From: Nereocystis luetkeana
Taxonomy: Eukaryota; Sar; Phaeophyceae; Laminariales; Laminariaceae
Reading direction: 5' to 3'
NCBI GenBank assembly: GCA_031213475.1
Contig: JARUPZ010000018.1
Span: 2,976,733-3,040,732 of the forward strand
DNA: 64,000 bases
Shown here in pieces: positions 1,870-35,200 of this stretch. Numbering within the stretch: the stretch's first letter is position 1; each line of letters starts with the position of its first letter. A program made the translations under genes and the position numbers. The notes below the pieces were generated by a model. It saw nothing but the letters and a program-made list of their open reading frames with translations. It did no database searches and was not told where the DNA came from.

Positions 1870-7808
<5,939 letters not shown>

Positions 7809-16510: not shown

Positions 16511-16548
16511 AAAAGTTGGAATCGATGATGAGCTGTCCGACGTCCCTA

Positions 16549-17037
16549 TGTGAAGATATGGCCGAGGTAAGGGTAAAGGACGCAGGTGTTTTCTGGCAGC
16601 TGGGAAGCAGTGCTTCGCTTCTTCTTATATAGATCTTCTTTATTGATGACTAGAGCTGAGGAGGTGCTCTGGTAGAGAAGTGAGAGGTAGGGGGGGTGGG
16701 ACTCGACGCTCAGATATACTCGTCCCACCCCACGCTACGAGCTCTCCTAAACTCCTCTTATCTAACGTACTCCTAAATAACTTTCCTAGGGCTACCGATT
16801 GTTCTTCTGCTAATATAAGAACTTCTCACTTTACGATCCTATCTGCGTTAAGGAACATTACTCTTGTCTAACGGCCTATCCACCTTAGAGAACATTCCTA
16901 AAAGACGGTTACTCTCAACTACCGGAATATCCGCCGGGTTAATCCATTCTTTGGATTATTCTCGTATTCCTCAGGCTACGAAACTGCCGACTATATTATC
17001 TATATCTATAGCCCATGAGCACTCGATTCATATCACA
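16549..17037 (-). repeat. Left LTR (3' LTR of the minus-strand element)
   Basis: This 489-bp repeat matches 30224-30712 end to end with no difference seen. A modest purine-rich run (AGGGTGGGC on the minus strand) lies just inside it and may be the polypurine tract. The flank outside is CCTA. Confidence 0.9.
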
Positions 17038-18439
17038 TTAGCCCACCCTGAATAGTCGTATATGCAGACCACAAGATGGTCGAAGGATGATGACAAAGTT
17101 CATCCCAAAAGACCAGGAAAAGGTGGTCGAAGATGCGGCTATTCGAAACAAAAGAAATGAGGCTATAGATCCCCCCACACCTCGTCATAAGACCCAAACA
17201 CTGCGAAGGGGTGTTTACTTAGAACAACCACTTAAAGGTAGAGACCGAAGGAGAGGAAGAAATAACTCAAAGCGGAAGCGAAAGCAGAGAAAGGCAAAGC
17301 GAAAACCGAAGAAAGAAGAAAGAAAACAGGAGACAGAACAAAAGCCGAAGCGAAGGCTGAAGAAGAAAACTAGTACCGAAGTGAAGGCGAAAGAAGGGCG
17401 CACAAAAAGGTGCGAACGGAGGTTGGTCGCCGAACCGGGTTGGCAAACTAGGAAACTCACGAAGGAGGCAGTGACCGCAATACAAAAAAAAAACACATAT
17501 ATATATTTGGTAGGAGTAATGCCTTGTCTTGTGGCGGAGGTCCTAACGTGGTAGACATCACTCAAGAGAAACGGGGCACTGCTAAAGTGCAAAGAGGGCT
17601 GCGTACACTAGGGCTATTAAAACCGGGAGACGGAGCGAACAACGCTGCGTCTGGGAGACCTCTTCGTGGTATGGACTATACCAGCAAACCTAGCAAGGTA
17701 TTTAACTCAACAAGAAAAAACTGAAGAAGATCCGCAAGGAGATTGGCCTAATGCGTGCAGTTCAAGGTGGTAGATACCGCATGGCTAAAACGCTAGCGTG
17801 TGCAACTCGGCCAACAGGGGCGACATCAAATATGGTGTCGTTTGCCACAGAGCAGAGGGGCGCGCGGAATACCGAACGAAATATGAAGAAACCTAAGAAA
17901 AAGAAAACAAACCACGATCGGGACCAGGAAACTAACTGAAAGCAGAACACGAGTCAGGGAAAATCGATCTTGGTAGAACCGCTATGGTTGATAACTCTGC
18001 GGCCTTCCGGGGCGGCAATGCTATCCGGACCCTACTTGGCAAAGATAGAAGAAACACGGGCGAGCTGGAAGCCCGATAAAATCTTAGCTCGATGACCGTC
18101 TGAAACAGGGGTCGGTGGAAACCGACGGGGGCTAGGGTACAGCCCAGGCTACGACACGATTTTACCTCGGCGTAGTATTGCCAATAATTTGCGGTAGGCT
18201 AGTGAAGTACAAACACATATGAAAATTATGGTATCGCTACGACTCGGTGGCCTGAACGCAAGAAGGCAACACGGACGTGTAGGCGACATGAAGAAAATAA
18301 AGGTAGACGGAAACAAATGCACCCAAGAAGCTGGCTGTTGGTGGCTATTGAAGACTAACCCTGAAGAACTACTTTAATATATTATTGACTAACCAGAAAC
18401 AAGTACCCAGAACTAAAAAAAACAAATGCTAAACCAAGG
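17038..18439 (+). other. 3' non-pol region of the LTR element, with an antisense Lys/Arg-rich frame
   Basis: No pol continuation is seen here. On the opposite strand to pol, a frame at 17087-17554 (155 codons) is packed with Lys and Arg, and smaller basic frames follow to about 17939. They could be accessory antisense frames or an effect of strand-skewed purine content. The stretch from 17.95 to 18.44 kb has no frame, but several GC-rich short inverted words such as GGTCGGTGGAAACCGAC. Confidence 0.4.
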
Positions 18440-21400
18440 CTATCCAGGGGGGGGAGTGGAAACCGTGGGGGCTCCGCGGGACACATCAGAGTTCCGCAGC
18501 AGCCCACGTGCTCGGCTCCCATTCCCATGGCGTTGAAGACACCACGATCCGTACACGGCGTTCCGTGCTGTAGTGTAGCGGGAGGGTTGAAGGTCGATCT
18601 TGATCGGTCCGGGGTCATCCAGGAACCGGATGATGTAGGAGCCGCCCGGTGAAGGTTCCGGTGGAGCTCCCGAAGAGACGTCCGGGGGTGAGCGGTGAGC
18701 GATTTTGCCCAGCCACCAGAGGCCGTCGCGCGCTTTGTACCATATGTGCGCTCCGGGGGGGAGGATGGTGGTGCTGAAGTTGTGGAGCCAGAGGCTGCGG
18801 GAGACCAGGGCGTAGCCGGGGGCGAGAAAGATTTGTCCTTGAGATCGTGCCAGTTCGCGGTGGGCAGCGCCGATGCGCATCTGGCGGTAGAGGCGGTTCG
18901 TCTGGCGGTGTTGTGTCGGCGCTCCTGACCAATAGAGTAGGATGTTGCGCCGGAAGTGTTGAAGGTCCAGTTCGCGTTCCCAAGAGGGGCTGAGAAGTCC
19001 AGCCCAGTGGGTCTCGTACAGAACGGCGATGACCCCGCCGCGGCCGCGTACGAGTTGATGGCCGGTGATCTGCTCGACCTCGAGGCGTTCCGGTGGGGGA
19101 GTGACGTCGTCGACGGTGACGTGGTAAGGTGGGGACTTGGCGGCAGAAGCTGTGAGTACGTATGTAGTGAGGTCCGCGGGCAGATGCTTGGGGATGTCGC
19201 TGGTGTCGTCGGGGTTCCGGCAAGGTTTGCATCGTTGAACGGAGACGCGGGGCTTGGAGTCCCGTCCCGGAAGGTCGGATGGAAGGTCGAGGAAAAGTAG
19301 CTTGTCGTGAAGAGGGCGGTTGTCGGGGGTGTTCGAGGCGGGCGTCGGTCCAACGGCGAGGACCTTGAAGGGCCCATTCCAGTTCAGGGAAAGCTTTGTC
19401 TTGAGTACAGTTGCGTCGGTGCCCTTTTTGACGCCTTGGCGAATGGTTGAGGCGGAGTTGTAGACCCAAACCCAGCCGCCGACGGTGAAGGGGGGGGATG
19501 CTCGGAGGGCGGCCATGATGGGCGCGTTGCGGCGCTGGAGACGCGAGACGGTGAGTCGGTGTAGTTCGCGGATGAGGGAGTACGCGCGTCGTTGTCGGTC
19601 GGTGGCGAGGTTGATGTAGACCGGATGATCGCGGTCCAAGCTTTGGTGGCCGCCGATGTTGTCGGGTTCGAAGACCGAGAGCGGGAGGCGAGGAAGGCGG
19701 CCCATGTGGATTTCGTTAGGCGCAAGCCCTGTAGCGGCGTTCACGGAGTTGTTGTAGGCCGACGACACGTGTGGCAGCAGCACGTCCCAGTCGGTCTGCT
19801 GTTCGTTGCCGACCATAGAGAGCATTTGGGCCAACACATGGTTGACGCGCTCGACGCCGCCGTTGGTGCAGGGGTGGTAGGAGCTGGTGTTGACCTTGCG
19901 GATACCAAGGCGCTCGTAGACGATGTTTGCAAGCTTGGAGGTAAAGTGTAGTCCGTTGTCGGAGAGAAGCGTAACCGGGCACCCCCAGAGAGGGATGTAT
20001 TCGTTCAGGAAGATGTCGGCGGTGCCGGCGGCCGTGAACTGCGCCGCTGAAACGGCAAACATATCGGCGCGCCGGCTGAAGCGGTCGGTGAAGAGAAGGA
20101 TGTGGACGTTGCCGCGCGGCGTGAGCGGCAGGGGTCCGAAGTAGTCGACGCTGACGGTGATGCCAGGCCCGTTGGGCAAAGGAAGAGAAAGGATGGGCCA
20201 GCGACTGGTGTGCCGGGAGGTTTTCCGCGCCTGGCATTGAAGGCAGCGGCGGATCCACCAGCGGGCGGAAGCGTCCATGCCAATCCACCAAAAGAAACGT
20301 GCCAGCATGCGGACCGTTCGGGTGACTCCTAGGTGTAGAGAGGTGGTGGCGTGGCAGGTGTTCAGCACCCAGGGGCGCATTAACATTGGCACGTAGATGC
20401 GTGGGGTAAGGGGGGCGGGTGGTGGTAGGCTGTTCCCGGGTGGGGGTGGGGGTGGTCGTTGGACCAGGAGGGTGGTTTCGTCGTCCGTACGGTGCAGCTT
20501 GCTTTTGGAGGCAAGGGTGAGGACGTCCGGAAGTTGTGGGCGCCGGGCCGAGGGGATGAAATCCAGGAGGTCGTTCGGCGGGGGGGCAGGGGAGTCCAAC
20601 GACAGGAAGCGGATGGTGGCGCAGCACAGGGGCTCTGCTCGTTGTTCTCGCGCCCAGTCTTTGAAGGTGTAGTGCTCGACGCGGGCGAGGAGGTAGGGGT
20701 CGTCATCGGGTTCGACGATGGGCTCCGGGAGGGGCAGCGACGGTGTTGGTGCCGGCGGAGAAGGCGTTGTTGGGGGGGTTGGGGTTGGGTTTGCGGGCGC
20801 AAACGGGTCGGGCGGTGCGGGAGCTGTGGCTGAAGGCGCCGTAGGAGGAGGGGGTCTTGGCTGGACCCCGGTCGGGGGCGTGGGCGCACTGGTGGGTGTA
20901 GATCGTCTGCGTACGACGGGTTGTGGTCGACGGCCGAAGCGATAGACGGCTGTGGGTCGAGGGGTTCCCGCGGCAGCGGCGATGCGATGGCGGGTCCGAG
21001 AAGATATCAGGCCTGAGACGGCTGGTTCCGTGCCGCCAGTGGTGGACGGCGGAGAGATGACGGACGGCCTGGAAGCCGAGCCTGGAGGAGCTCCGCTGTT
21101 CACGGCGGCGTTCTCGGGGCCAACAAGCAGTCCAGCGGTGGAGTCAGGGGTCGCAATAGGCCCGACGAAGGTGTCGGGTGCGGGGGAAAGGGTGGGGTGC
21201 TCCATACGTGGTCCCAGTAGGCGGAAGTCGCGGAAATCGTCGGTGGTGAAGGGAAGCGGCTGGATGGTTGGGATGGGCCTTGAAGGGGGGGATACGAGCC
21301 CACCCAAGCCGATACCCGGGGCGGGAGGGTCGTTCGGCGCGAAGCCGCAGGGGCGGATGAGGTAGATGCCGACGGTGTCCGGGCCGGTAAGGCGGTTGCG

Positions 21401-23947
21401 TCCGGTGCGGTCGGCGTCGGTGGCGGGTTGGGGGAGCCGGGAGAGGAAGTCGGCGTTGCCGTTAGCCGTGCCCTTCCGGTATTCCAGCGTGTAGGTGTAC
21501 GCCGAAAGGAACTCGAGCCAGCGCCGGACGCGGGCGTTGTGTTCTCCGACCTTGGCGATGTTCTCGAGCGCCTTGTGGTCCGAGTAGATCTGGAAGCGGG
21601 TGGACCATAAATGTCCACGGAGGCGTTTGATCGCCCACACGATGCTTCCGGCCTCGAGGTCGAGGGGTGTCCACGAACGTTCGGAGTCCAGGGTGGCACG
21701 GCTGATGAAAAGGATGGGTCGGACTGAGCCGTCGGGTTGTTCTTGCTCAAGGGTCGCGCCGAAGCCGTCGATGCTAGCGTCGCAGTAGAGGCGGAAGGGG
21801 CGGGAGTTGTCGGCGACGGCGTCCCAGTCGGGGTAGACGAGGATAGGCGGTTCGGCAAGTTCTTGGAGGATGGCGCGGACGGTGGTTTCCATGGCGGGGG
21901 TGAAGTCGAACGTGGCGCCTTGCTTGAGTAAAGCGTTGATGGGGCGCAGACGTCGGGAGAGATTCGGCAGGAACTTGCCGTAGTAGTTGATGCCCCCAAG
22001 GAGCGAGCGCACTTGCTTCTTGTCGGTCGGCATGGGCATTCTGGTGAGGGCGGCAACCTTGTCGGAGTTGGGGCTGTATCCGCCGGCGGAGATGGTGTGC
22101 CCCAGGAAATCGGCGGTGGTGGCGCCAAGTTTGGCCTTGGCCGGGGAAAGTTTGAGGTGGTGCTTCCGGAGGCGTCCGAAGAGAGCTCTGATGTTGGCAA
22201 CGTAGTCGTTGGGGTTGGGGTCGAAGACGATGATGTCGTCGAGATACGCGGCGACGCGTTCCAGGCCTTTGATGACCTCGTTGACGACCTTAACGAACCA
22301 GCCGGGGGAGGCGCTGCTGCCTTGTGGCATAACAAGCCACTCAAATAATCGGTTCGGTGTGCAGAACGCTGTCAAGGGGATGGTGTCCTCGTCGATGGTG
22401 ATTTGGTGGAACGAGGAGACCAGGTCGAAGAGGGAAAAGATGCGACCTTTACCCAAGGAGTCGAGGACTTCGTCGACGCGGGGGATGGGGAGTTGTCCGA
22501 GGGAGATGATGGCGTTGAGCCTCTTGTAGTTGATTGTGATGCGAACACCTCCGTCTTTCTTGGGGATGGCGACCATAGGGCTGGAGTATGGCGACGTGGA
22601 ATGCTGGATCAGGCCGGCAGCCAGGTACTGGTCCAATACGGCGTCGGCCTTTTTGGCGAGGATGGGGTTGATCCTGTAGGGGCGGGAAGTGACCGGTGCG
22701 CTGTCCGGAGGTACCGTGATCTTGAACGGCATTAGCGAGCACGAGCCGAAGTCGGTGTTCGACGTGGAGAAAACGTCCTGGAATTCGCAGAGGACGTCGC
22801 CCAAGTTGTTGATCACCGATGGGGTCCATCCAGAACCGTGAAGGTCGAAGTTGACGTCGCGTAGGTGCAACGGCAGGCGTTCCCAGAGGTCGAGGAAGCT
22901 TTTGCGCTGGTCGGCGTCGAGGCGTGCAAGGAGCTGTGGGCACGGGGCTTTTAGTGCGGTAGAGGGGTCGGCTGTTGGTGGACTCTGGTCGGCCACCGGG
23001 ATGTTGTTGTGGAGGGCATGTACGTCCGGAAATGGAGGGGGGAGCGGCGGGTTTAAGGAGGGATGCCCAAGGGTGGCGAGCGGTACCTGTACCAGTGGGG
23101 AGCAGGAGGTTCCGAGGAGGTCACCCGGCTCGAGTTCGGTAGATCCAGATAGGGGGACCGTTTGGTACCCGTCGGAGACGAAAATCGCCGTGTCGGAAAG
23201 GGGGTTCTCGCGGGGGAGCATGTTCACCATGTAATTCCCGGCCAATGCTGGAGCGCCTGACTGGCGCACCAGGTTGACCTTGGCGAGCTGTGGGGTAGAG
23301 GAAAGCGAAATAGCTTTGTTGCCGGCGAATCGGAGGTGGTAGACGTCGTCAGTGGAACGATCGTCGGGAATGAATGCTGAGGCTCCGTTGGGGTCGTGGT
23401 GACTTAAAGAGAGCTCACCACGGGTTCGCCGGGAAGGTTGGTGGGGGAGGGCGGGCTGTTGCCGGAGCGTGGTATACGAGCGTTGCTCGAAGCGCATCCA
23501 GCTGTCTCGTCCCAGGAGGATGGGGTGCTGCATGGTTCCAGCAGGAACTACGCAGGCCCATACTGCTAGGGCAGCGGTGGGGGTCTGGAGGCGCATAAAC
23601 TGGATGCTTAAGCGGATAGAGACGGAGGTGGAGAGTGGGGCTGAGGTCCCGAAGCCTCCCCATGAACGGGGGGAACTGTGCCGTTCGCAGGCGTCGGTGG
23701 CTGACTGGGAGGCCTTCAGTTGTTCCATCGCGGTTGCGGTGATAAACGACTGGGGCGAGCCGGTATCGAGCAGTGCCACGAGTTCGCGGCGGGTAGTGGC
23801 GTCGGGGCCGCTGTGCACGAGTACCTTCGTCGTGAACGACGCGTCGTCGACGGTGATGATGCCGCCTGTAAGGCATGGTCCGTGTTCCGGTATCGGCGGC
23901 CGACGGGTAGGAAGGTGGCTGTGGGCTGCGGTGTTGATGGTGGACAC
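18440..23947 (-). CDS. Gypsy pol polyprotein with chromodomain and Tudor-like tail
   Basis: The single open frame is 1,835 codons. In order: a retropepsin-like protease (DTG at about residue 61); reverse transcriptase with YLDD at about 568-571; RNase H (CDAS near 720); a Pro-rich linker; integrase with a zinc-binding region and a D,D,E core; and a GPF module (NWNGPFKVL). A chromodomain lies at about 1620-1672 (EVEQITGHQLV ... WERELDL...NILLYW). The final 100 or so residues contain WYKARDGLWWLGKI ... YIIRFLDD, which looks like a Tudor/agenet fold. It copies and inserts the element. Chromodomains in this family steer insertion toward marked chromatin, and the Tudor-like tail may add a second reader. 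The frame looks whole. Frames on the other strand within it are shadows. Confidence 0.92.
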   Translation of the reverse strand: MSTINTAAHSHLPTRRPPIPEHGPCLTGGIITVDDASFTTKVLVHSGPDATTRRELVALLDTGSPQSFITATAMEQLKASQSATDACERHSSPRSWGGFGTSAPLSTSVSIRLSIQFMRLQTPTAALAVWACVVPAGTMQHPILLGRDSWMRFEQRSYTTLRQQPALPHQPSRRTRGELSLSHHDPNGASAFIPDDRSTDDVYHLRFAGNKAISLSSTPQLAKVNLVRQSGAPALAGNYMVNMLPRENPLSDTAIFVSDGYQTVPLSGSTELEPGDLLGTSCSPLVQVPLATLGHPSLNPPLPPPFPDVHALHNNIPVADQSPPTADPSTALKAPCPQLLARLDADQRKSFLDLWERLPLHLRDVNFDLHGSGWTPSVINNLGDVLCEFQDVFSTSNTDFGSCSLMPFKITVPPDSAPVTSRPYRINPILAKKADAVLDQYLAAGLIQHSTSPYSSPMVAIPKKDGGVRITINYKRLNAIISLGQLPIPRVDEVLDSLGKGRIFSLFDLVSSFHQITIDEDTIPLTAFCTPNRLFEWLVMPQGSSASPGWFVKVVNEVIKGLERVAAYLDDIIVFDPNPNDYVANIRALFGRLRKHHLKLSPAKAKLGATTADFLGHTISAGGYSPNSDKVAALTRMPMPTDKKQVRSLLGGINYYGKFLPNLSRRLRPINALLKQGATFDFTPAMETTVRAILQELAEPPILVYPDWDAVADNSRPFRLYCDASIDGFGATLEQEQPDGSVRPILFISRATLDSERSWTPLDLEAGSIVWAIKRLRGHLWSTRFQIYSDHKALENIAKVGEHNARVRRWLEFLSAYTYTLEYRKGTANGNADFLSRLPQPATDADRTGRNRLTGPDTVGIYLIRPCGFAPNDPPAPGIGLGGLVSPPSRPIPTIQPLPFTTDDFRDFRLLGPRMEHPTLSPAPDTFVGPIATPDSTAGLLVGPENAAVNSGAPPGSASRPSVISPPSTTGGTEPAVSGLISSRTRHRIAAAAGTPRPTAVYRFGRRPQPVVRRRSTPTSAPTPPTGVQPRPPPPTAPSATAPAPPDPFAPANPTPTPPTTPSPPAPTPSLPLPEPIVEPDDDPYLLARVEHYTFKDWAREQRAEPLCCATIRFLSLDSPAPPPNDLLDFIPSARRPQLPDVLTLASKSKLHRTDDETTLLVQRPPPPPPGNSLPPPAPLTPRIYVPMLMRPWVLNTCHATTSLHLGVTRTVRMLARFFWWIGMDASARWWIRRCLQCQARKTSRHTSRWPILSLPLPNGPGITVSVDYFGPLPLTPRGNVHILLFTDRFSRRADMFAVSAAQFTAAGTADIFLNEYIPLWGCPVTLLSDNGLHFTSKLANIVYERLGIRKVNTSSYHPCTNGGVERVNHVLAQMLSMVGNEQQTDWDVLLPHVSSAYNNSVNAATGLAPNEIHMGRLPRLPLSVFEPDNIGGHQSLDRDHPVYINLATDRQRRAYSLIRELHRLTVSRLQRRNAPIMAALRASPPFTVGGWVWVYNSASTIRQGVKKGTDATVLKTKLSLNWNGPFKVLAVGPTPASNTPDNRPLHDKLLFLDLPSDLPGRDSKPRVSVQRCKPCRNPDDTSDIPKHLPADLTTYVLTASAAKSPPYHVTVDDVTPPPERLEVEQITGHQLVRGRGGVIAVLYETHWAGLLSPSWERELDLQHFRRNILLYWSGAPTQHRQTNRLYRQMRIGAAHRELARSQGQIFLAPGYALVSRSLWLHNFSTTILPPGAHIWYKARDGLWWLGKIAHRSPPDVSSGAPPEPSPGGSYIIRFLDDPGPIKIDLQPSRYTTARNAVYGSWCLQRHGNGSRARGLLRNSDVSRGAPTVSTPPPG

Positions 23948-24014
23948 TTGGGCGAAGTGGCTGATGGGGTAGGCGTCGGGTGTAGACGGCGGTAGAAGCA
24001 GCCCAAGTGGGGAG

Positions 24015-25370
24015 TTAGGCGGTTGCCGTGGGGGGGTCGGGCTTGTCTCGTGGATGCCGTCGGCGGTGGGGAAGACCCGTGTTGAGTCGGTGGAGGCGGG
24101 TGTTTGCTCTGGGTCGTTGGGACTGGTACCAGTAGGAAGTTGGGGGGAGGCGATCGGCGTCGAAGCTTTCTCGGACGTCCATCAGTACCCGGCCCAGCAG
24201 ATTCCGACCACGCCAACGCGTCGGAATGCAGGCGTCCGGATGGTCGGCCTTGAGGCCTATGCCCCAGATGAGGTCGTGTGGGCTGGCCTCGGCAATGTGT
24301 TTGTCGTCCGTTGCCGCCAGCTCTCGCCGTAGCTCCGAGTGTTGGCGGAACTTGGAGAAGTTGAGGTTGAGGACGATGTTGTAGCGGTGTCGCTCCCAAA
24401 CCAGTTCGTCGAAGCCGAAAACGGTGCGTCCAAGTGCTTTTTGGTCGGCCGGGTCGCGGGTCGCTTTGATGCGGCGCTCAGTTGTGGTGTCCCCGAAGAG
24501 CGCAGCCTTCTGCGCCATCATCATCTGCTCGGCGCAGTTGTATGTGATGCCATCGTGTTCGATGTCGCACAGGTACCACTGCGAAAAGACGGAAGAGGAG
24601 TCCCAGAAGAAGTGAAAGGATGAGGGGGCCTCTGCGGTGGTGTGAGCTGTTGATGGCGTGTTGGTTGTTGGGGGTGGGGGGCGACGATAATTTTTTCTAT
24701 CGCCACCTGGCGTCGACGGGGGTAAAGTCAGCCACGATCGAGCGGTGCTGACCGGAACCCTCGTGTTCGCGGGGGAATTGCTCGGCAAAGCCGAGGTACC
24801 GGGGGGGTCCACGCCGGGGCTTATACGCCGGGCGAGACGACCCTGAAGGGCCCTGTCGTCCAACTTTTGGAGGACAGGGGGATACTCGCTAGGAGATACC
24901 ACACCTGGGGCCCGTGTCCACGCGTTGCACAAAGCAGGCGAGGAGGACGGGGCAGGGGGCTCAGGGCATGTCCTGGTCGACGTTGGTCGCGAGTCTTCCG
25001 TTTTTAATACGGGACTGCCCCTCGAGCTCAGGGGCAGCGGTGGTGTCAACACCGTGGCAGCGGATGGAAGCCCGTCGTTCGCGGGTCCAACGCTGTCACA
25101 GGAAAGGCGCGCAAGCTGGAACAAGCGCGTATGGAGCGGCCAATTAGAGGCTGGCTCAGGGGGCGATGGCCCGGTCGACGAAACGGTAGTTTCGTGTGAA
25201 CCGGAACCGCTGGTAGCCGTAATCGTCGAGACGTTTCCCAGGGTAGCAATGTCTGGGGTCTCGGCAATGGTCGGCAAGTAGCGTTGCTCACCGCCGGAAG
25301 ACGTCGAGTGGAGCATCCTGGTGAGGCTCGGCGTCTTGGCCTCCTCCCGCCCACACCTCAAGGCAATCAC
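24015..25370 (-). CDS. NADAR-domain frame between gag and pol
   Basis: This frame has about 451 codons, and the first codon listed is a GTG, so the true start is uncertain. The first 250 residues are low-complexity (Pro/Ser/Thr). A NADAR (YbiA/DUF1768-like) domain follows at about 255-400. It shows FHFFWDSSSVFSQWY, the core YNCAEQMMMAQKA, KFRQHSELRRELAAT, LIWGIGL and GRNLLGRVLMDVRE, each lining up with E. coli YbiA motifs (SEHYFQAQK, QHAELRALLLAT, GKNRLGYLLMELRE). NADAR enzymes cleave N-glycosidic bonds: YbiA acts on riboflavin-pathway intermediates, and other members remove ADP-ribose from guanine. It might counter host ADP-ribosylation of the element's nucleic acid, which is inference. It lies just upstream of pol and in the same direction, so it may be made as part of a gag- or pol-linked product. 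Confidence 0.85.
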   Translation of the reverse strand: MIALRCGREEAKTPSLTRMLHSTSSGGEQRYLPTIAETPDIATLGNVSTITATSGSGSHETTVSSTGPSPPEPASNWPLHTRLFQLARLSCDSVGPANDGLPSAATVLTPPLPLSSRGSPVLKTEDSRPTSTRTCPEPPAPSSSPALCNAWTRAPGVVSPSEYPPVLQKLDDRALQGRLARRISPGVDPPGTSALPSNSPANTRVPVSTARSWLTLPPSTPGGDRKNYRRPPPPTTNTPSTAHTTAEAPSSFHFFWDSSSVFSQWYLCDIEHDGITYNCAEQMMMAQKAALFGDTTTERRIKATRDPADQKALGRTVFGFDELVWERHRYNIVLNLNFSKFRQHSELRRELAATDDKHIAEASPHDLIWGIGLKADHPDACIPTRWRGRNLLGRVLMDVRESFDADRLPPTSYWYQSQRPRANTRLHRLNTGLPHRRRHPRDKPDPPTATA

Positions 25371-25553
25371 TTGAGCAAGAGGATCAGTGCTTGAGCAAGT
25401 GGCTGGGAAATGGGCTGGGTTAGGGGGGGGGGCATGCGGGGGCAGGGGTCGGGGAGGCGTGGTGCACGTGATTTACGCGTGCGTCCTGAGAGCCTCGGGT
25501 GGTCGCAGTAGATGCTGTTGATGGAGATGCGGCAGGTGCTCCATCATCGGCTG

Positions 25554-27178
25554 TCAGTTGGTGCGGAAGGTTCCCGACTGCCGTTGGTTCGGGAGGTTGG
25601 TCGATTTGTTGCTGCCCATCCGCATGTTTGCGGGGGCGGCTGGTGCGGACGTGTTGGTCGCAGGGGTATGAACCGTCAACGCGGAAGACGAGGGGGCAGG
25701 CTCGATGAGTTGTTGTCGGAACTGTTGCCCTGGCGAGTGTCGGTTGCCGTTGTCGTATGCACGGCCGTAGTTCTGGCGCCAGTTGTCGGAGCGCCCGTTG
25801 TTGCTGCGGTAGTTGCGGGAGCGGTCGTGGTTAGAGAGGCTGTTGTTGGAGTTTCCGCTACGGTTGGTGTTGTTGCCTCGACGGTTGTTGTCGTAGCGGT
25901 TGGAACTCCGCTCCAGGTTGCGCTCGTATTGCCCCCGGCAGTAAGAGAGCATCCTCTGTTGCCACTGGCGGTAGGCCTGACCGTCGTCGTTTAGCTGTCC
26001 GAGTGCCGGGTTTAAGATGCCGGACGTGGTGAGGAAGCTCTTGGAGCAGGTCTTCTGGCTATGGTCCGTGCCATTGCAGTTGAGGCAAAGGTCACCGTGA
26101 GCGCGTAGGGCTTGGGCGTGGGACACCGCGACGTTCCGCCTCCGTCATGGGCTCCGTAGAGGCTCTCGTCACCAGGCTGAGCGCTCGTGTGGGGGGGGGC
26201 GCTGCCGTCGTGGGAGGTGTTGTCGAGGTGAGAAGGGGCGGTGTCGCCGGCGATGGCGTATCCGTTGTGGGGCGGGTGGTTGGGGGTGTCGGAGGGGTGG
26301 GTCGAGACTCGGTCGGGTTCCACACGTAGCCGCGGCCGGCGTTGGAGTGGAAATACCTTAGCTCGAGTAAAAGGGTGTGGGCGGCCCCGATGAACTCGGA
26401 CGAGTCACCCTCGGTGGCGGCGCGGGCCAGAACGAAGGTGATCGACGGGTCGCAGTCGGGTGTGAACAGTCGCCAGACGCGGCGTGCCGCTATAGAGACA
26501 TCTGAGGCGCTATCGGGTCGCGTGTACTCTGCATCCAGCGGAGCTTGGCGTCCAGAAAGACCCAGTCATTTGACTCAAAGCCGAACGTCTGCGGTTGCCG
26601 GTGCCCAGTGGGTTTGGGGGCTGGCAAGGATTGGGCCGGTAGTGGTGCCTGGGACATTGTGGTCCAGTGGTGCCTGGGACATTGTGGTCCCAGCTTGGTA
26701 CTGGGGGCGCTGGGAGGTGGTGGTCCTAGACATCGCGGCGGACGCAAAGGGTGGTCCAGGGTGCGGAGCCGGGTGGCCGTGGTCGCAGCTGCAGTCTCGT
26801 AGGTGGGGTCGAAGGGGTAGGAGAGGGCGGTAACACGAGTAGGAGGTCAGCGCTCTCTTTCGCAAGAAGGACGAGCTGCTCGAGGTGGGCTTTGAGGGCC
26901 GCGCGGCGCTCACGGAGAGCCGTGGGATCGCCTTGGTAGTGCCCCGGATTGAGAGCAGGGGTGGAAGTTTCCTGTGCGGAGACTTCCGGCTTGATGGTAG
27001 GCCCGGCACTGGTCGTGCCTGCTCCCAGTGGAGAAGATCCCGGTGTGGTGGGGTGTAGAGCGATGTCACTCAGAATGGTATCGAAGCCGGGGGTGCCGTC
27101 GTCCGTGGCGCGAGAGGACCTTGCGGCATACCTCGCCTCGCGGGGGTTGGTGGTGTCGGTGGAAGGGGCGCCGGGCAT
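25554..27178 (-). CDS. gag region of the LTR element
   Basis: A zinc knuckle of the form C-X2-C-X4-H-X4-C (CLNCNGTDHSQKTC) lies near 26,047-26,088, the usual nucleocapsid mark. The Asn/Arg/Gly-rich tail beyond it would suit RNA binding. Upstream are Pro/Thr/Ser-rich and helical stretches (for example LRERRAALKAHLEQLVLLAKES) and a QTFGFESNDWVFLDAKLRW stretch that would suit matrix/capsid parts. The region is spread over more than one frame, so it is broken in a few places or expressed by splicing or frameshifting. Confidence 0.7.
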
Positions 27179-30100
27179 GTCGGTGGAGGAAGTTGGAGAG
27201 GGCTGGTGGATCCAGGCTTGGATCAGGGTAGGCGGCTACAATACCAACAAACCGATCTAGGGGACAGAAAGGAGTGACGGTAAGGACGTACAATAAGGGG
27301 TATTGAGGGGGGTGTGCCACAATTATAGTGCCCGTCGAAGGATATTTTTATAGTTGAGGACGTCTAGCTAGTAGTAGGCGCCTCGCGTGTGATTGACGGT
27401 AGTCGCGCCCGAGTCACTCAAGTGATATCAGTTGAACCGAATTGAACAGAACTCCGTCTGAAATGTCCAATGTTCGTAGTGATAACAGGGCGTGACGATT
27501 ACTGGGCGTGGGCAGTGCAAGACCTTTCGTTGGGATACAATTATAGTACCCGTAAAGGCAACGTGTAGGTCGAGTCGGGGGGAAAATTGCAGCATGCCGG
27601 CACTATTTGGTAGCTGCACAGCATATCGGGCGATTCCCTACTTGAACGGTGGGCAGTTTTTCGTTCCGTGGTAGAAACAGACAGCAACCGATACGTTTCG
27701 GGGGTCGCGAGGCCCGATACGTTGTGAGATACTTAGGGTATCGTAGAGGTGGCACAAGTGGGGACAAAAATAAATAAATAAAAATAAGAAATAGACCCCG
27801 GTACGTAAAAACATGGAAAAGAGTATCAATCGGCTCCTTTGGGGGAGTCGAAGACGCTAATCCGCCGCGAAGGATGTTGTGTATTGGTGTTAGTTTGACC
27901 AGCATTTAGTTCATCACTTTCGGAAATGGTCACTGCCCGGGCCACAGTTACTATGCTCCATATTCGAGCAGCTTGCAGCTGCTGTGTTTGTGATGAGCTG
28001 GACAAACATGGGAGAAACAGTTGTTTACTAGTTTGTGTAGCCTTTGTGGTGTTACGGTTCTAGGCAGCCTGTACCCTGCTTTATTTGTAAAAGCTGGTGG
28101 GGGTGGGGTGCGTTGGAAAATAACACTTGTTACAAACTTGAACAGTGTCTACCCTGCTTTGATTTAAGGTGGGAGCAAAAAGAAACGATTAGAAAAAAAA
28201 GAAGGCACACGTCGAAAACAAAAAAGAAAGGGAAAACAAACACGACCAAACTAATATTCGGGCCAGATCAGGTAGCATACATTCTGTTTTGATGTGCTAC
28301 AGCTGGGGGGGGGGTAGACGTATACAGCAGTAGGCAAGGTTGCGCGCCACAAAGCCTCGTTTCGTCGGTAACGCTGAGGAACGTGCACGTAAGAGGCTGT
28401 AGCCGGACATATTTGTGCAGCATATATATACCTTATTTCTGGCTTAAAACTGGCAAATTTAAATGCGCCTAGGCAGCAGACGGACAAGGTTCGGCAACAT
28501 AAAGCCGCTTTAAGTCGTTAATGCTGGAAAACGTGCACGTAAAGAGCAGTAGAAAAAAAAATCTAAAAATAATAGACATCGTTTGTATCCTATAGGCCGT
28601 GGGGGTGGGGCATAAATGGCATAAATCCGATTAATTTCCGCAGCATGCGTCCTGTATTTATAGTAGAGCAGCAGGAAAGTAGTGCATCATAGAGCCTGTT
28701 TTGCATGGTAGAGGCAGCGTGTGGACGGGCAATCTGAAGAGGGGTGCAGAAATATAAGCTGGTCCCAATGAGCAACATTTAAAATCCTCCTGCAGATATA
28801 TTCCTAAAGAGCTACGTGCAACCATATAAGAATTGTCGACAGGTATACCTGGTATTCCCAGAGCGCTACCCGTACGTGTGTGTTCTTCGTATTGTATATA
28901 CGTGCAACCAGGTAAGGTTCGCCTACGTACGAGTATAAATATATGCATTCCTATACGGTGGATGTGCTACACCATCACATCAAGAAAGGGGCGCCGACCG
29001 TGCATCGTTTGTCTACCTAAATATATCGTGAGGAAGGAAGGGGGGGTTCACGGGAGATTTCGTCACTAAAATAGTGTTACGCACCCCTATTGGTACCTCG
29101 CTCGTATACCAAACTTTGTAGGCTACTATGTGTGTGTTGAAATCCTGTATCCAAGGCATTCAAATAAAATACCAGGTACATTCATGGCTATTCTCGCTGT
29201 GGGGGGGTCGCCAGTAAGGTTAATTCATACGTATACTATCGCTCGTATCAGGTACCAGGTACCAGGTATGGTCGTTCAATAACTCGCAGGCGAATATCCC
29301 ACGCAATGGATACCAATGGATACAATTCGCAATTATAGCCGAGCCGTTCGTAGGCTGCTCACATATGCATATAATAGGAATGGCGTATTTAGTCACACAA
29401 CCGCTGTTCCTAAAAAAAATTTCCACGTATCAGTATACTGCTGCGGGTGTCCTACCAGTACTACAGCAGCTTCTTTGTAGTCGAGGTAAGGGTCAAATCC
29501 CATACAACGCTTGTCTATACAGGAAGGTGCAGATGAAATGGCGGGGGGGGAGAATGTGAGCAGTTCCACCTAATTTTCACGTGCCTTCCCTATGAAAGGG
29601 CGGGCATACATCGAGGCGGAGGGGGTCATTGTTGTAAAAAACGCTCTCGTTGTTATGCGCGATGAGCACGATGTCATTTGGGGGGGATCTCCAGGTGCAT
29701 TCAACCACATGGTGTCACGTGTCGTGGAGGGGAACGATCTCGTCATTCCACGGCGGAGACGGGGTACAGGGCGCGGAAAAACATACCTCATCACACTGCC
29801 GAGAGCAGCAGTAGTACTTACCAGGTATATGACAAGTACCTGGTACCTACTAAGAAACAGCAGAGAGAACTTGTACGTACTTGTACATGTGCCTGATAAG
29901 GGGGGAAGAATGCGTCTACTCACCTATACTAAGAGGGGAGCAACGTCTACTGTCGCCACTAGGCAGCTTGTCACAATCGTCGGCACTAAAAACGCACTCA
30001 GGAACGCAGGTTCGAAAAGAAAACAAACGAAGAAATAAAATAGACAGCGAGGAAAACGAAAGAGAACACGAAACAAGGAACGAAAAGAAACAAAAATAAA

Positions 30101-30223
30101 AAGTTGACTTCAAAACCAGTTGCCTCCCGGGTAGGGATGGCTCACATGATCGTGAGAAGATCTAGAAGAAGCGCTGCAGTCCTCAGCTTGGCCAGAAGGT
30201 TCGTCGAATGCGAAGACGTCAGA
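27179..30223. other. Leader between the 5' LTR and gag, 3.0 kb, host-like in composition
   Basis: The leader is AT-richer than gag-pol and contains at least six TACCWGGTA words (28.85-29.85 kb) of the kind found in host DNA, along with a 125-bp imperfect tandem pair (about 28,327-28,560). A plus-strand frame at 29592-30038 (148 codons, GNDLVIPRRRRGTGRGKTY) is antisense to the element and unrecognised. The stretch may be captured host DNA or a nested insertion. Confidence 0.5.
29251..29270. repeat. TACCWGGTA cluster inside the LTR element leader
   Basis: AGGTACCAGGTACCAGGTAT gives two overlapping copies of the window-wide word. A second cluster lies at about 29817-29850. Confidence 0.7.
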
Positions 30224-30712
30224 TGTGAAGATATGGCCGAGGTAAGGGTAAAGGACGCAGGTGTTTTCTGGCAGCTGGGAAGCAGTGCTTCGCTTCTTCT
30301 TATATAGATCTTCTTTATTGATGACTAGAGCTGAGGAGGTGCTCTGGTAGAGAAGTGAGAGGTAGGGGGGGTGGGACTCGACGCTCAGATATACTCGTCC
30401 CACCCCACGCTACGAGCTCTCCTAAACTCCTCTTATCTAACGTACTCCTAAATAACTTTCCTAGGGCTACCGATTGTTCTTCTGCTAATATAAGAACTTC
30501 TCACTTTACGATCCTATCTGCGTTAAGGAACATTACTCTTGTCTAACGGCCTATCCACCTTAGAGAACATTCCTAAAAGACGGTTACTCTCAACTACCGG
30601 AATATCCGCCGGGTTAATCCATTCTTTGGATTATTCTCGTATTCCTCAGGCTACGAAACTGCCGACTATATTATCTATATCTATAGCCCATGAGCACTCG
30701 ATTCATATCACA
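30224..30712 (-). repeat. Right LTR (5' LTR of the minus-strand element)
   Basis: This copy is identical by eye to 16549-17037. It should hold the promoter for the minus-strand transcript. CCTA follows directly outside. Confidence 0.9.
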
Positions 30713-30842
30713 CCTATATATGTGTGTCGTGCCAGGTACCGCCCTGACCGGTAATATAAATAATGATACAATCTCCGCTCGGAATCTAATATGAGTATAA
30801 AACGTACCTTATATTCTCGGTCAAAGTGGTAGCACATTACCT

Positions 30843-32287: not shown

Positions 32288-35200
32288 GTGAGAGGAGAGT
32301 GCCTGCCGTTGACAGCAGCAGCAGCGACAAATCTTTCTGAACGGTACCACTCCGTGCCTAAACATAAGAACCATTTGCATTGAATATTATAAGCTAAATG
32401 TCCCCTATATTGAGGTACCTTGGTATGTTGTATGCGTCACATGCGTTCAAGTTTGAGTTCACTGCTGCTGGGTCGTTCGATCTACGTACAGTATCGCGTA
32501 TCGTATTCTATATACTGTAGCTTGCCAGTGCTGCTGCCGTTGCCACCGTGAGCACTCGACCACACCGCCCGCGGACAGACACATCCGCATTGCAAACACG
32601 GGTGGGTATAATACGAGTGCGATACGAGACATCTACAAGTACTACTGCTCTATATCTGTGTTTTATGAAAAGTACCTGTCGACCGCGCCCGATGTAAGAC
32701 ATACCAAACTGGACGGAAATGTAAGGGCCGTTTAGTCTTTATATTTATACTCCAACGGTCATTACATTTCCTCTTAAATGGTACGAAGTAAGTACGAGTG
32801 ATGACTATGTTGTAAGGCTTAGATTGGGTAGTAAATAGTAAGCGATCGGTTAACCTTTTACCTTACGAGCAGCCCAAAATGGACCAAGACCTTAACAAAC
32901 GGCGTCATCGGCAGTACATCGGTCGTTGTTCTTGAGTTCGTGTTTCGGGTTTTTTTCTGGCAGGAGGTGTGTTCCTTGGTTCCTTGGTTGTTTGTTTGTT
33001 AGTTTGTTAGTTTGTTAGTTTGTTTTGTTTTTTTTTTGCTTGGGCTTGGTAGAGGATGTTTTTCGCGTATTATGTCCTGCCTACTCCCCCCGCTCTGTGT
33101 CGGGGCTGGTCTGGGTAATCGGGCCACTCATTTGTGGCACAGGACACGTTTCCCGAGTTGTAGGCTGGGTTTTCGGTGTTTCTTGACATCTTCCGTGTTA
33201 TTTTTTCTTCTCGTTTTTTTGTATCCACTTTTCACTTTCCCTGCATCTTCCTCGTCCCCCCCCGCCGCGGGTGACATGGCGATGGTTTTTCGTTGACGAT
33301 TTATTCCAGCCCCTTAAGGCTATGTCTTCCTTTCATTCTTTTTTACGTACATTGCCGGCTTCGTTGCCTTGCCGTTCAGAGGTGTGGGAGTGGGTTTTGA
33401 GGAGCCGCATGTTCGACTCATGTTCTAGTTTGTGGAATCGGGGTTTCCATGAATTTCCCATAATTCTGCATATACGGCTCATCAGAGTGGGCTAGTGTTA
33501 TGATACTGCTTTGTATGAGGTTGAAAGCCCGGTAATTACCTGGGTTCAGGCACTGGGATCGTATTTGTAGTACTTGGAAGGCGTATCTTAGGTGGAAAAC
33601 CAGGGGTTTTCCAGAGAGGCACCAGCGTGGTCCCAGTCTCCGTCGTGCACGAAAGGAATAAAGCTGCTCTTCTATCTCTAAGCAAGCAACACATGTGAGT
33701 ACCAATGAGCATCGACTTATTAGGCAGATGTTAAGGTCATGGACAGCGGGACACTTTGTATCCCTGGGCAGGTCTGCCTCTTAAGCCGGTACTCGTTGGT
33801 ACTCACGTTGATGTTCGCTTATAGATAGAAGAGTCACTTTTTTCCTTTCGTGCACGACGGAGACTGAGACCACGCTCGTGCCTCTCTGGAAAACCCCTGG
33901 TTTTCCACCAAAGATACGCCTTCCAAGTACTACAAATACGATCCCAGTGCCTGAACCCAGGTAATTACCGGGCTTTCAACCTCATACAAAGCAGTATCAT
34001 AACACTAGCCCACTCTGATGAGCCGTATATGCAGAATTATGGGAAATTCATGGAAACCCCGATTCCACAACTAGAACATGAGTCGAACATGCGGCTCCTC
34101 AAAACCCACTCCCACACCTCTGAACGGCAAGGCAACGAAGCCGGCAATGTACGTAAAAAAGAATGAAAGGAAGACGTAGCCTTAAGGGGCTGGAATAAAT
34201 CGTCAACGAAAAACCATCGCCATGTCACCCGCGGCGGGGGGGGACGAGGAAGATGCAGGGAAAGTGAAAAGGAAACACATAAAAAAGACGAGAAAACACA
34301 TATCACGGAAGATGTCAAGAAACACCGAAAACCCAGCCTACTACTCGTGAAACGTGTCCTGTGCCACAAATGAGTGGCCCGATTACCCAAACCAGCCCCG
34401 ACACTGAGCGGGGGGGGAGGCAGGACAGAATACGCGAAAAACATCCTCTACCAAGCCCAAGAAAAACACTCAAACTAACAACCCAGGGACACACCTGCCA
34501 GAAAAAAGAAACCTCGAACCGAAAACTCGGAAAACGTCAACGAAAATAGAAAGACCACCGCCCAAAATGCAGGAAAACGTCAAGAAAAAAAAATCGAGCG
34601 CAGCCGAGAAGCGAAAATCAGCTATCCACGGCGGCGCCTCGAGATTCGTCTACGGTACGCGGGACCCCCCGTGCAAATGCGCTAGCCAAGTGAATTTGTA
34701 GACACCAAGAGCCACGTACAGCTCTCGTCGAAGTCGTGTAGCGCGCCGGACCTGCCCAGGGATACAAAGTGTCCCGCTGTCCATGACCTTAACATTCGGA
34801 TCTCACGTCCACATGAAATCGCTTTCTGAAGAAAAGTGAATTTCCTCATGTCAAGGATCTGTAAAAAACTTCTGGATCCCCAGAAGTTGAAACCGCGTAT
34901 TGGTGTCACGCGTCGACCCGTATATCCGGTCCGTTCCAAGGCGGGGGGGTGTTATAAGGGTCATAAATTGTGTAGGCGGTCGGTTAACCTTTTACCTTTA
35001 GCCCAACGGACCAAGACCTGAACAACTACCGCTACATGTATCGACCTTTTTTCAAACTGCTATCCTGGAGAAACGGCAAACGGCGTAGGGTGCCTTTCGC
35101 GTACTAGCTGGTGTGACTTTAACAAGAACGGGGCCGGTTCGCCCGTTTCCCGGGTCCATCACGCTTGCGAAGGTGCTGAAACCTCCATTTCCGGCTATCA

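Follow-up and report, generated by a model that had tools for sequence, protein, structure and literature searches.

Why would a retrotransposon of a brown alga carry an enzyme domain of the ADP-ribose world, and what could that domain do for it? This question is raised by a stretch of 64,000 nucleotides of the Nereocystis luetkeana genome (assembly GCA_031213475.1, contig JARUPZ010000018.1, positions 2,976,733 to 3,040,732; hereafter the window). It contains a Ty3/gypsy long terminal repeat (LTR) retrotransposon of 14,164 bp (16549–30712, minus strand), recognized by its identical LTRs, the flanking TAGG and its pol domains. We report that this element encodes a NADAR domain, that the domain is a property of an element family and usually opens Pol, and that it possibly erases ADP-ribose from guanine.

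A NADAR domain with a predicted YbiA-like fold

The open frame in question extends from stop to stop over 24015–25472 (minus strand) and consists of a linker of ~280 amino acids (aa) followed by the NADAR domain (PF08719, residues 288–436, 24165–24611, minus strand). A preliminary description of this DNA had drawn the frame as 24015–25370 and had named NADAR core motifs in it; the frame is indeed open, its stop-to-stop extent on the minus strand is slightly longer, and the motifs are present in the translation. The domain itself was confirmed by profile search, PF08719 matching the frame with an E-value of 1.7e-47 and 162.1 bits against a cut-off of 35.1. The NCBIfam model TIGR02464, "riboflavin biosynthesis intermediates N-glycosidase", also matched (8e-43). 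Such a match would suit a housekeeping N-glycosidase that controls metabolite damage as in riboflavin biosynthesis, for the benefit of the host or of the element, but the family name follows annotation and not an assay of the window protein, and a retrotransposon Pol has no evident reason to carry such an enzyme; we regard this explanation as very improbable.

Structure prediction, which had been proposed as a check, gave an AlphaFold2 model of the domain with a predicted local distance difference test (pLDDT) score of 91.1 (four other models lay at 60.5–68.9). The model resembled 8bau, the NADAR of P. nicotianae with ADP-ribose (template modelling (TM) score 0.85 by model length, E-value 5.1e-10, 31% identity), and 2b3w, which is E. 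coli YbiA (TM score 0.79, 28% identity); beyond these two, no PDB structure matched it with an E-value below 0.001. The ADP-ribose-contacting residues of 8bau are described in PMC11543638, and we took the chain numbering of 8bau as two ahead of that of the paper, because the named residues then agree. In the alignment, contacts E43, K50, K75, R79, W89, R93, E125, D130 and W133 correspond to E315, K322, K345, R349, W359, R363, E395, D400 and W403 of the window frame, which form the putative active site. 8bau and YbiA are like the window domain in fold and in most ligand contacts, and differ from it in being stand-alone proteins.

A property of the element family

The genome (465 Mb, 1987 contigs) was searched with PF08719, and the best 150 of 778 first-look candidates were scored. 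All 150 exceeded the Pfam cut-off, and the open frame around 49 of them spans 1900 aa or more (longest, 2428). From the best 86 hits by NADAR score, 70 loci were studied, the other 16 being left out (15 tied at 166.4 bits, plus C1:10361499); the 70 comprise 54 loci of family A, to which the window copy belongs, and 16 of family B. As this choice followed the NADAR score, copies were also sampled by LTR alone: the 40 of 590 candidates closest to the window LTR were scored and gave 15 pairs and 10 singles. Twelve of the 15 pairs enclose a sense-oriented NADAR hit, located 5.4–6.0 kb from the 5' LTR in nine of them and at 1.8, 4.3 and 10.6 kb in the others. For the three pairs without NADAR (5.6, 7.2 and 15.8 kb), this means absence from the scored lists (150 of 778 and 150 of 865 candidates). 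A missing profile match had been named beforehand as a refutation, and so had absence of the domain from all other copies, the latter as a sign of a chance insertion; neither was found, with 150/150 scored hits and 12/15 LTR pairs. NADAR is thus a property of the element family and not of a single insertion.

Over the 70 loci, the counterparts of the nine contacts, in the order given above, are kept in 69, 70, 67, 69, 70, 70, 69, 70 and 70 cases, and a stop codon falls within NADAR in 7 of the loci. A glutamate at the position of E125, and not Asp or His, marks the YbiA subfamily (PMC11543638); it is present as E395 in the window and as E in 69/70 loci. Judged by sequence and model, the domain is a YbiA-subfamily NADAR in which most active-site residues are kept and a YbiA-like fold is predicted.

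Of the best 150 NADAR hits, 54 lie on contig C1 (21.87 Mb), where ~7 would be expected from its length. A repeat-rich or special chromosome, or the assembly, may lie behind this excess.

NADAR as the usual opening domain of Pol

The NADAR frame runs in the same direction as the pol frame (18440–24181, minus strand), as the preliminary description had it. That description had also placed NADAR between gag and pol as a frame of its own, and on this point it has to be corrected, NADAR being the N-terminal part of Pol. The 70 genomic loci extend only as far as the start of reverse transcriptase (RT), and the frame relation of NADAR and protease (PR) was given for 40 of them: the NADAR frame continues into the first protease match in 33, is shifted in 6, and in 1 there is no protease match. 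Over all 70, the protease region adjoins NADAR in 68 (the exceptions being L008 and L052; in L006 the protease region is partly inverted). Also, P0019 (2422 aa) holds NADAR, PR, RT, RNase H, integrase (IN) and the C-terminal tail in one protein. Because 33/40 loci share one frame with the protease, NADAR normally opens Pol, with a linker before it.

The separate NADAR frame of the window copy is a lesion, namely a one-base difference in length between NADAR and protease, which occurs in L057 (the window copy), L056 and L062 and is absent from 51 of the 54 family-A copies. As it is common to 3/54 copies, the lesion was copied, perhaps with the help of other copies. That NADAR is as a rule joined to the rest of Pol by programmed frameshifting was considered and rejected, with 33/40 loci in one frame and the shift in 3/54 family copies. 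A separate frame could also stem from a host gene inserted by chance, or from a reading-frame artefact. However, the same domain order is found in an Ectocarpus protein and on other contigs, the protease region stands beside NADAR in 68/70 loci, and NADAR lies within 12/15 LTR pairs; we reject this explanation, which has virtually no weight left.

The protein P0001 (310 aa, 3.6-kb contig), in which the first half of NADAR is fused straight to the C-terminal tail of Pol, is apparently a deletion derivative.

Relatives of the window element

The RT search returned 554 proteins, and the figures on relatives refer to the best 120 of these. RT identity to the window exceeded 45% in 42 of the 120, and 19/42 have a NADAR match; none of the 78 listed relatives at or below 45% has one. 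Among the 23 high-identity relatives without a match, 19 start too far downstream to contain one (by eye). The 19 NADAR proteins selected in this way by RT keep K50, K75, R79, W89, E125, D130 and W133 in 18/18 scorable rows and E43 in 15/16; R93 is kept in 12/17 and is C in 5. The RT tree, which included only rows whose RT match exceeded 220 aa, places all 20 NADAR rows within one 39-row clade (96/86, bootstrap not settled); immediately outside this clade lie P0040 and P0051. Within a 23-row clade, the window joins the Ectocarpus proteins P0018 and P0034 (100/100, bootstrap not settled). P0018, from Ectocarpus sp. CCAP 1310/34 and with NADAR, is the nearest named relative among the matches listed (71% RT identity). 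The tree fits a single gain of NADAR in this lineage, P0051 representing either the state before the gain or a loss.

In 2025, PMC12477816 described a Gypsy lineage of Ectocarpus sp. 7, with Gypsy-12_Ec32 among its members, whose Pol carries NADAR at its N-terminus. The earlier statement that no standard gypsy layout was known to have this domain is thus superseded, and the window element is a further member of that kind, its layout not being new. NADAR at the Pol N-terminus was found in relatives of the window element; in the window copy itself it is out of frame. Compared with Gypsy-12 by its published description, the window element is likewise a Ty3/gypsy element with a chromatin-reader-like tail, and differs in genome, in family and in a Tudor-like module that follows the chromodomain-like stretch of its Pol; the available text of PMC12477816 mentions chromodomains in three lineages and assigns a Tudor domain to Gypsy-10 alone. 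The window NADAR is 46–52% identical to those of the 13 RT-selected elements compared.

Two other known systems share some of these features. The NADARs of RNA-virus polyproteins, compared by description (PMC9503650), are also enzyme domains inside a polymerase polyprotein, but belong to RNA viruses and not to LTR retrotransposons. The NADAR-like ORF1 of Tx1 long interspersed elements (LINEs) of Crassostrea gigas resembles our case as a NADAR in a retrotransposon, although these are non-LTR elements for which the authors report only divergent similarity (PMC12477816). In the open-licence PMC literature, only PMC12477816 was found for NADAR, Ty3 and gypsy together, and nothing for DUF1768 with retrotransposon; a scan of IMG/VR for NADAR relatives gave 3 pattern matches, none of them confirmed.

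Origin of the domain

The NADAR profile search returned 2285 proteins, 120 of them listed. The NADAR tree was built on 64 chosen rows, with 28 element rows and 31 other stand-alone rows picked by hand; the long-branch rows P0011 and P0015 and the near-duplicate loci L013, L036 and L008 were left out, and the element rows include 9 short proteins assigned to them by their place in an earlier tree. Five NADAR proteins without RT, among them proteins of Ectocarpus fasciculatus, Ectocarpus sp. 13, Scytosiphon promiscuus and Pylaiella littoralis, form one group (100/99). Together with 16/28 element rows they make up a group of 21 (95/94) with no clear inner order. Family A is placed elsewhere, with P0245 (99/81). 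A tree of element and host NADARs had been suggested in the preliminary description; in the present one, RT-less algal proteins fall together with those 16 element rows, and the family of the window is not among these.

In the approximately unbiased (AU) test, one group of all element NADARs with the brown-algal proteins was not rejected (p 0.093), all elements without the brown-algal proteins were weakly rejected (p 0.036), and the non-A elements without the brown-algal proteins were not rejected (p 0.179); the union of non-A elements with brown-algal proteins had a support of only 58/11. Since the tested groups were named after the first tree had been seen, both an origin from host genes and a separate origin in family A are leads and not results.

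A short stretch just before the domain, F/Y-D-x-S/T-x-x-Y/F, was found in all five RT-less proteins of the brown-algal type and in P0211 of Chrysoparadoxa, which groups with bacterial-type proteins in the NADAR tree. It is also present in 13/19 testable element proteins (20 tried) and in 10/10 testable family-B loci (of 15), and in 0/48 testable family-A loci (of 53) and 0/43 testable other proteins (of 104), the pattern having been fixed post hoc, after the rows had been inspected. The Ectocarpus paper suggests a direct bacterial origin of the element NADAR (PMC12477816). The stretch and the tree together favour instead an exchange of NADAR between elements and algal genes, which may have gone in either direction. 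The NADAR of family A may have been acquired independently, been exchanged or simply have evolved fast.

The five RT-less proteins, four of them brown-algal (P0142, P0144, P0147, P0176) and the fifth P0154, resemble the element NADARs in their tree grouping and in the stretch before the domain, and differ in lying outside Pol in their protein models and, for four of them, in a Cys/His-rich N-terminus. These four (P0142, P0144, P0147 and P0176) are possible host genes. In the window genome, 150 of 865 candidates were scored in a search that did not handle introns, and no match among them reached the Cys/His-rich N-terminus. Over the published layout, we thus add LTR-selected copies and the Tudor-like module in the Pol tail. 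Less surely, we add the grouping of RT-less brown-algal NADAR proteins with element NADARs and, as a possible but unproven point, a separate origin of the NADAR of the window family.

Possible role

We propose, as a possibility a little short of probable, that NADAR in Pol is an eraser of guanine-linked ADP-ribose that would protect the element's own RNA or complementary DNA (cDNA). The domain would be made and packaged as part of Gag-Pol, and the element protease might cut it free. Host ADP-ribosyltransferases would put ADP-ribose on guanines of element RNA or cDNA, the particle-borne NADAR would remove it, and reverse transcription could then finish. This proposal draws on known members of the family: in DNA, NADARs free guanine of its ADP-ribose (PMC11543638, PMC11125620), and in RNA they are reported to reverse guanosine ADP-ribosylation, which no other hydrolase family examined did (PMC11833690). 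Also in its favour are the profile match, the predicted fold, the kept contacts, the LTR-selected copies, the dN/dS values of NADAR, the common RT clade and the Ectocarpus precedent. Undoing nucleic-acid ADP-ribosylation or tuning NAD-derived signals, as the preliminary description supposed, agrees with published NADAR biochemistry.

Selection on the domain was estimated as the ratio of nonsynonymous to synonymous substitution rates (dN/dS, NG86). It was 0.44 within family A, where the values include post-insertion decay, and 0.55 within family B; between the two families dN was 0.48 and dS saturated. For the protease region, the ratio was 0.49 within B and 0.15 between A and B, with dS near saturation.

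Several observations weigh against an active eraser. Within family A, the protease region gave a ratio of 1.25, and none of these pairwise dN/dS values are independent of each other. The ranking of the 70 loci by NADAR score favours intact sites. Two contacts are altered in the window NADAR, Y84 to F and D86 to E, the latter being variable among elements. Also, P0051 (in which 263 residues precede the protease) and the gene models P0054 and P0027 reach far enough upstream and have no NADAR match, and P0035, which reaches as far, holds only the first part of the domain. YbiA of E. coli is active in vitro and did not rescue DarT1 toxicity (PMC11125620), so that activity in vitro may differ from the biological role. 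Finally, NADAR identity is below RT identity in 85/91 element pairs (median 54.4 vs 61.9%), and this faster divergence fits weaker constraint as well as it fits an arms race.

The faster divergence would also be compatible with a domain that is not catalytic and serves Pol as a reader or structural component. It would bind nucleic acid or chromatin bearing ADP-ribose, at breaks for instance, and would aid RNA handling or the choice of target; such a component would share its polyprotein with the chromatin-reader-like tail. However, nearly every row retains the catalytic E43, K50 and E125, and binding alone would not clearly need them, which makes a reader unlikely. The kept active site would on the other hand suit an enzyme directed against diffusible defence signals derived from NAD, or against toxic derivatives of ADP-ribose, and not against nucleic-acid ADP-ribosylation. 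To our knowledge, no diffusible NAD-derived host defence signal has been described in brown algae, which counts against such a role. Also, macromolecular targets have been argued for the NADARs of eukaryotic RNA-virus polyproteins, the closest arrangement (PMC9503650), and we find a role in diffusible signalling rather doubtful.

Should NADAR in Pol prove to erase ADP-ribose from guanine, this chemistry would be in use by retrotransposons as well as by phages and toxin-antitoxin systems, and the search for a eukaryotic defence that ADP-ribosylates the nucleic acids of mobile elements would best turn to brown algae. A wider scenario, in which brown algae defend themselves by ADP-ribosylating guanines of retroelement RNA or cDNA, particle-borne NADARs of this gypsy lineage erase the mark, and the lineage obtained NADAR from stramenopile host genes, the window family having acquired or exchanged its own separately, seems to us unlikely to hold as a whole.

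Structure of the window copy

The young age of the element and its matched LTRs, both noted beforehand, were borne out. The 5' LTR (30224–30712, minus strand) and the 3' LTR (16549–17037, minus strand) are 489 bp each and 100% identical, with the sequence TGTGATATG...CTTCACA. Target-site duplications, TAGG in the sense direction, were located by eye at 30713–30716 and 16545–16548 (minus strand), so that the element has the TG...CA ends and the 4-bp duplication of Metaviridae. As the LTRs are identical, the insertion is recent, a statement made without applying any substitution rate. The bases after the 5' LTR are TCTGACGTC..., and inspection by eye of that one place for a tRNA-type primer found no TGG directly there; a tRNA-type primer-binding site after the 5' LTR is usual for Ty3/gypsy elements and does not define them. 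About 3 kb (27236–30223) separate the 5' LTR from the first presumed gag frame.

The presumed gag region (25554–27235, minus strand) was assigned by its place and by one CCHC zinc knuckle, CLNCNGTDHSQKTC (26046–26087, minus strand), its outer limits being those of open frames. It is broken across several reading frames and gave one weak match, to P0034 (36% over 77 aa, E-value 6e-06). With gag split over frames and NADAR and protease out of frame, the window copy is defective.

In the pol frame, all on the minus strand, we located a retropepsin-like stretch with LLDTGSPQS (23606–23785; weak Pfam match, E-value 0.24), a motif type that recurs in relatives, then RT (PF00078, 22091–22567, 5.6e-27), RNase H (PF17917, 21497–21811, 1.1e-27), the H2C2 zinc-binding domain of integrase (PF17921, 20219–20392, 7.3e-15) and the integrase core (PF00665, rve, 19871–20170, 2.3e-05, 25 bits against a curated cut-off of 32.6). 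RT, RNase H and integrase H2C2 exceed their Pfam cut-offs, and rve and retropepsin fall below theirs. The order PR-RT-RNase H-IN is that of Metaviridae, with PR and rve resting on matches below cut-off.

The final 228 residues of Pol (18443–19126, minus strand), with counterparts throughout the RT clade, form a tail in which a chromodomain-like stretch, called by eye and modelled with low confidence, precedes a Tudor-like barrel (~18527–18748). The tail model had a pLDDT of 65.9; barrel residues 127–200 were better, with blocks mostly at 77–92 and one at 55. The barrel resembles the Tudor domains of PHF1 and PHF19 (best E-value 0.043, probability 0.98; none below 0.001). The tail had no Pfam match above cut-off (best SH3_VIII-1_N, E-value 0.21) and no credible PDB match by sequence search.

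Other features of the window

ARAGORN detected no tRNA in the window, no Rfam family reached its gathering score there, and 7 other long frames of the window have no Pfam match above cut-off. A large inverted repeat is located at 33086–34415, with arms of ~600 nt that are 94–96% complementary and related copies at 44.8–45.4 kb. Also, a tandem array extends over 3527–4019 and slightly beyond, mostly with 9-nt spacing and with 33 overlapping copies listed.
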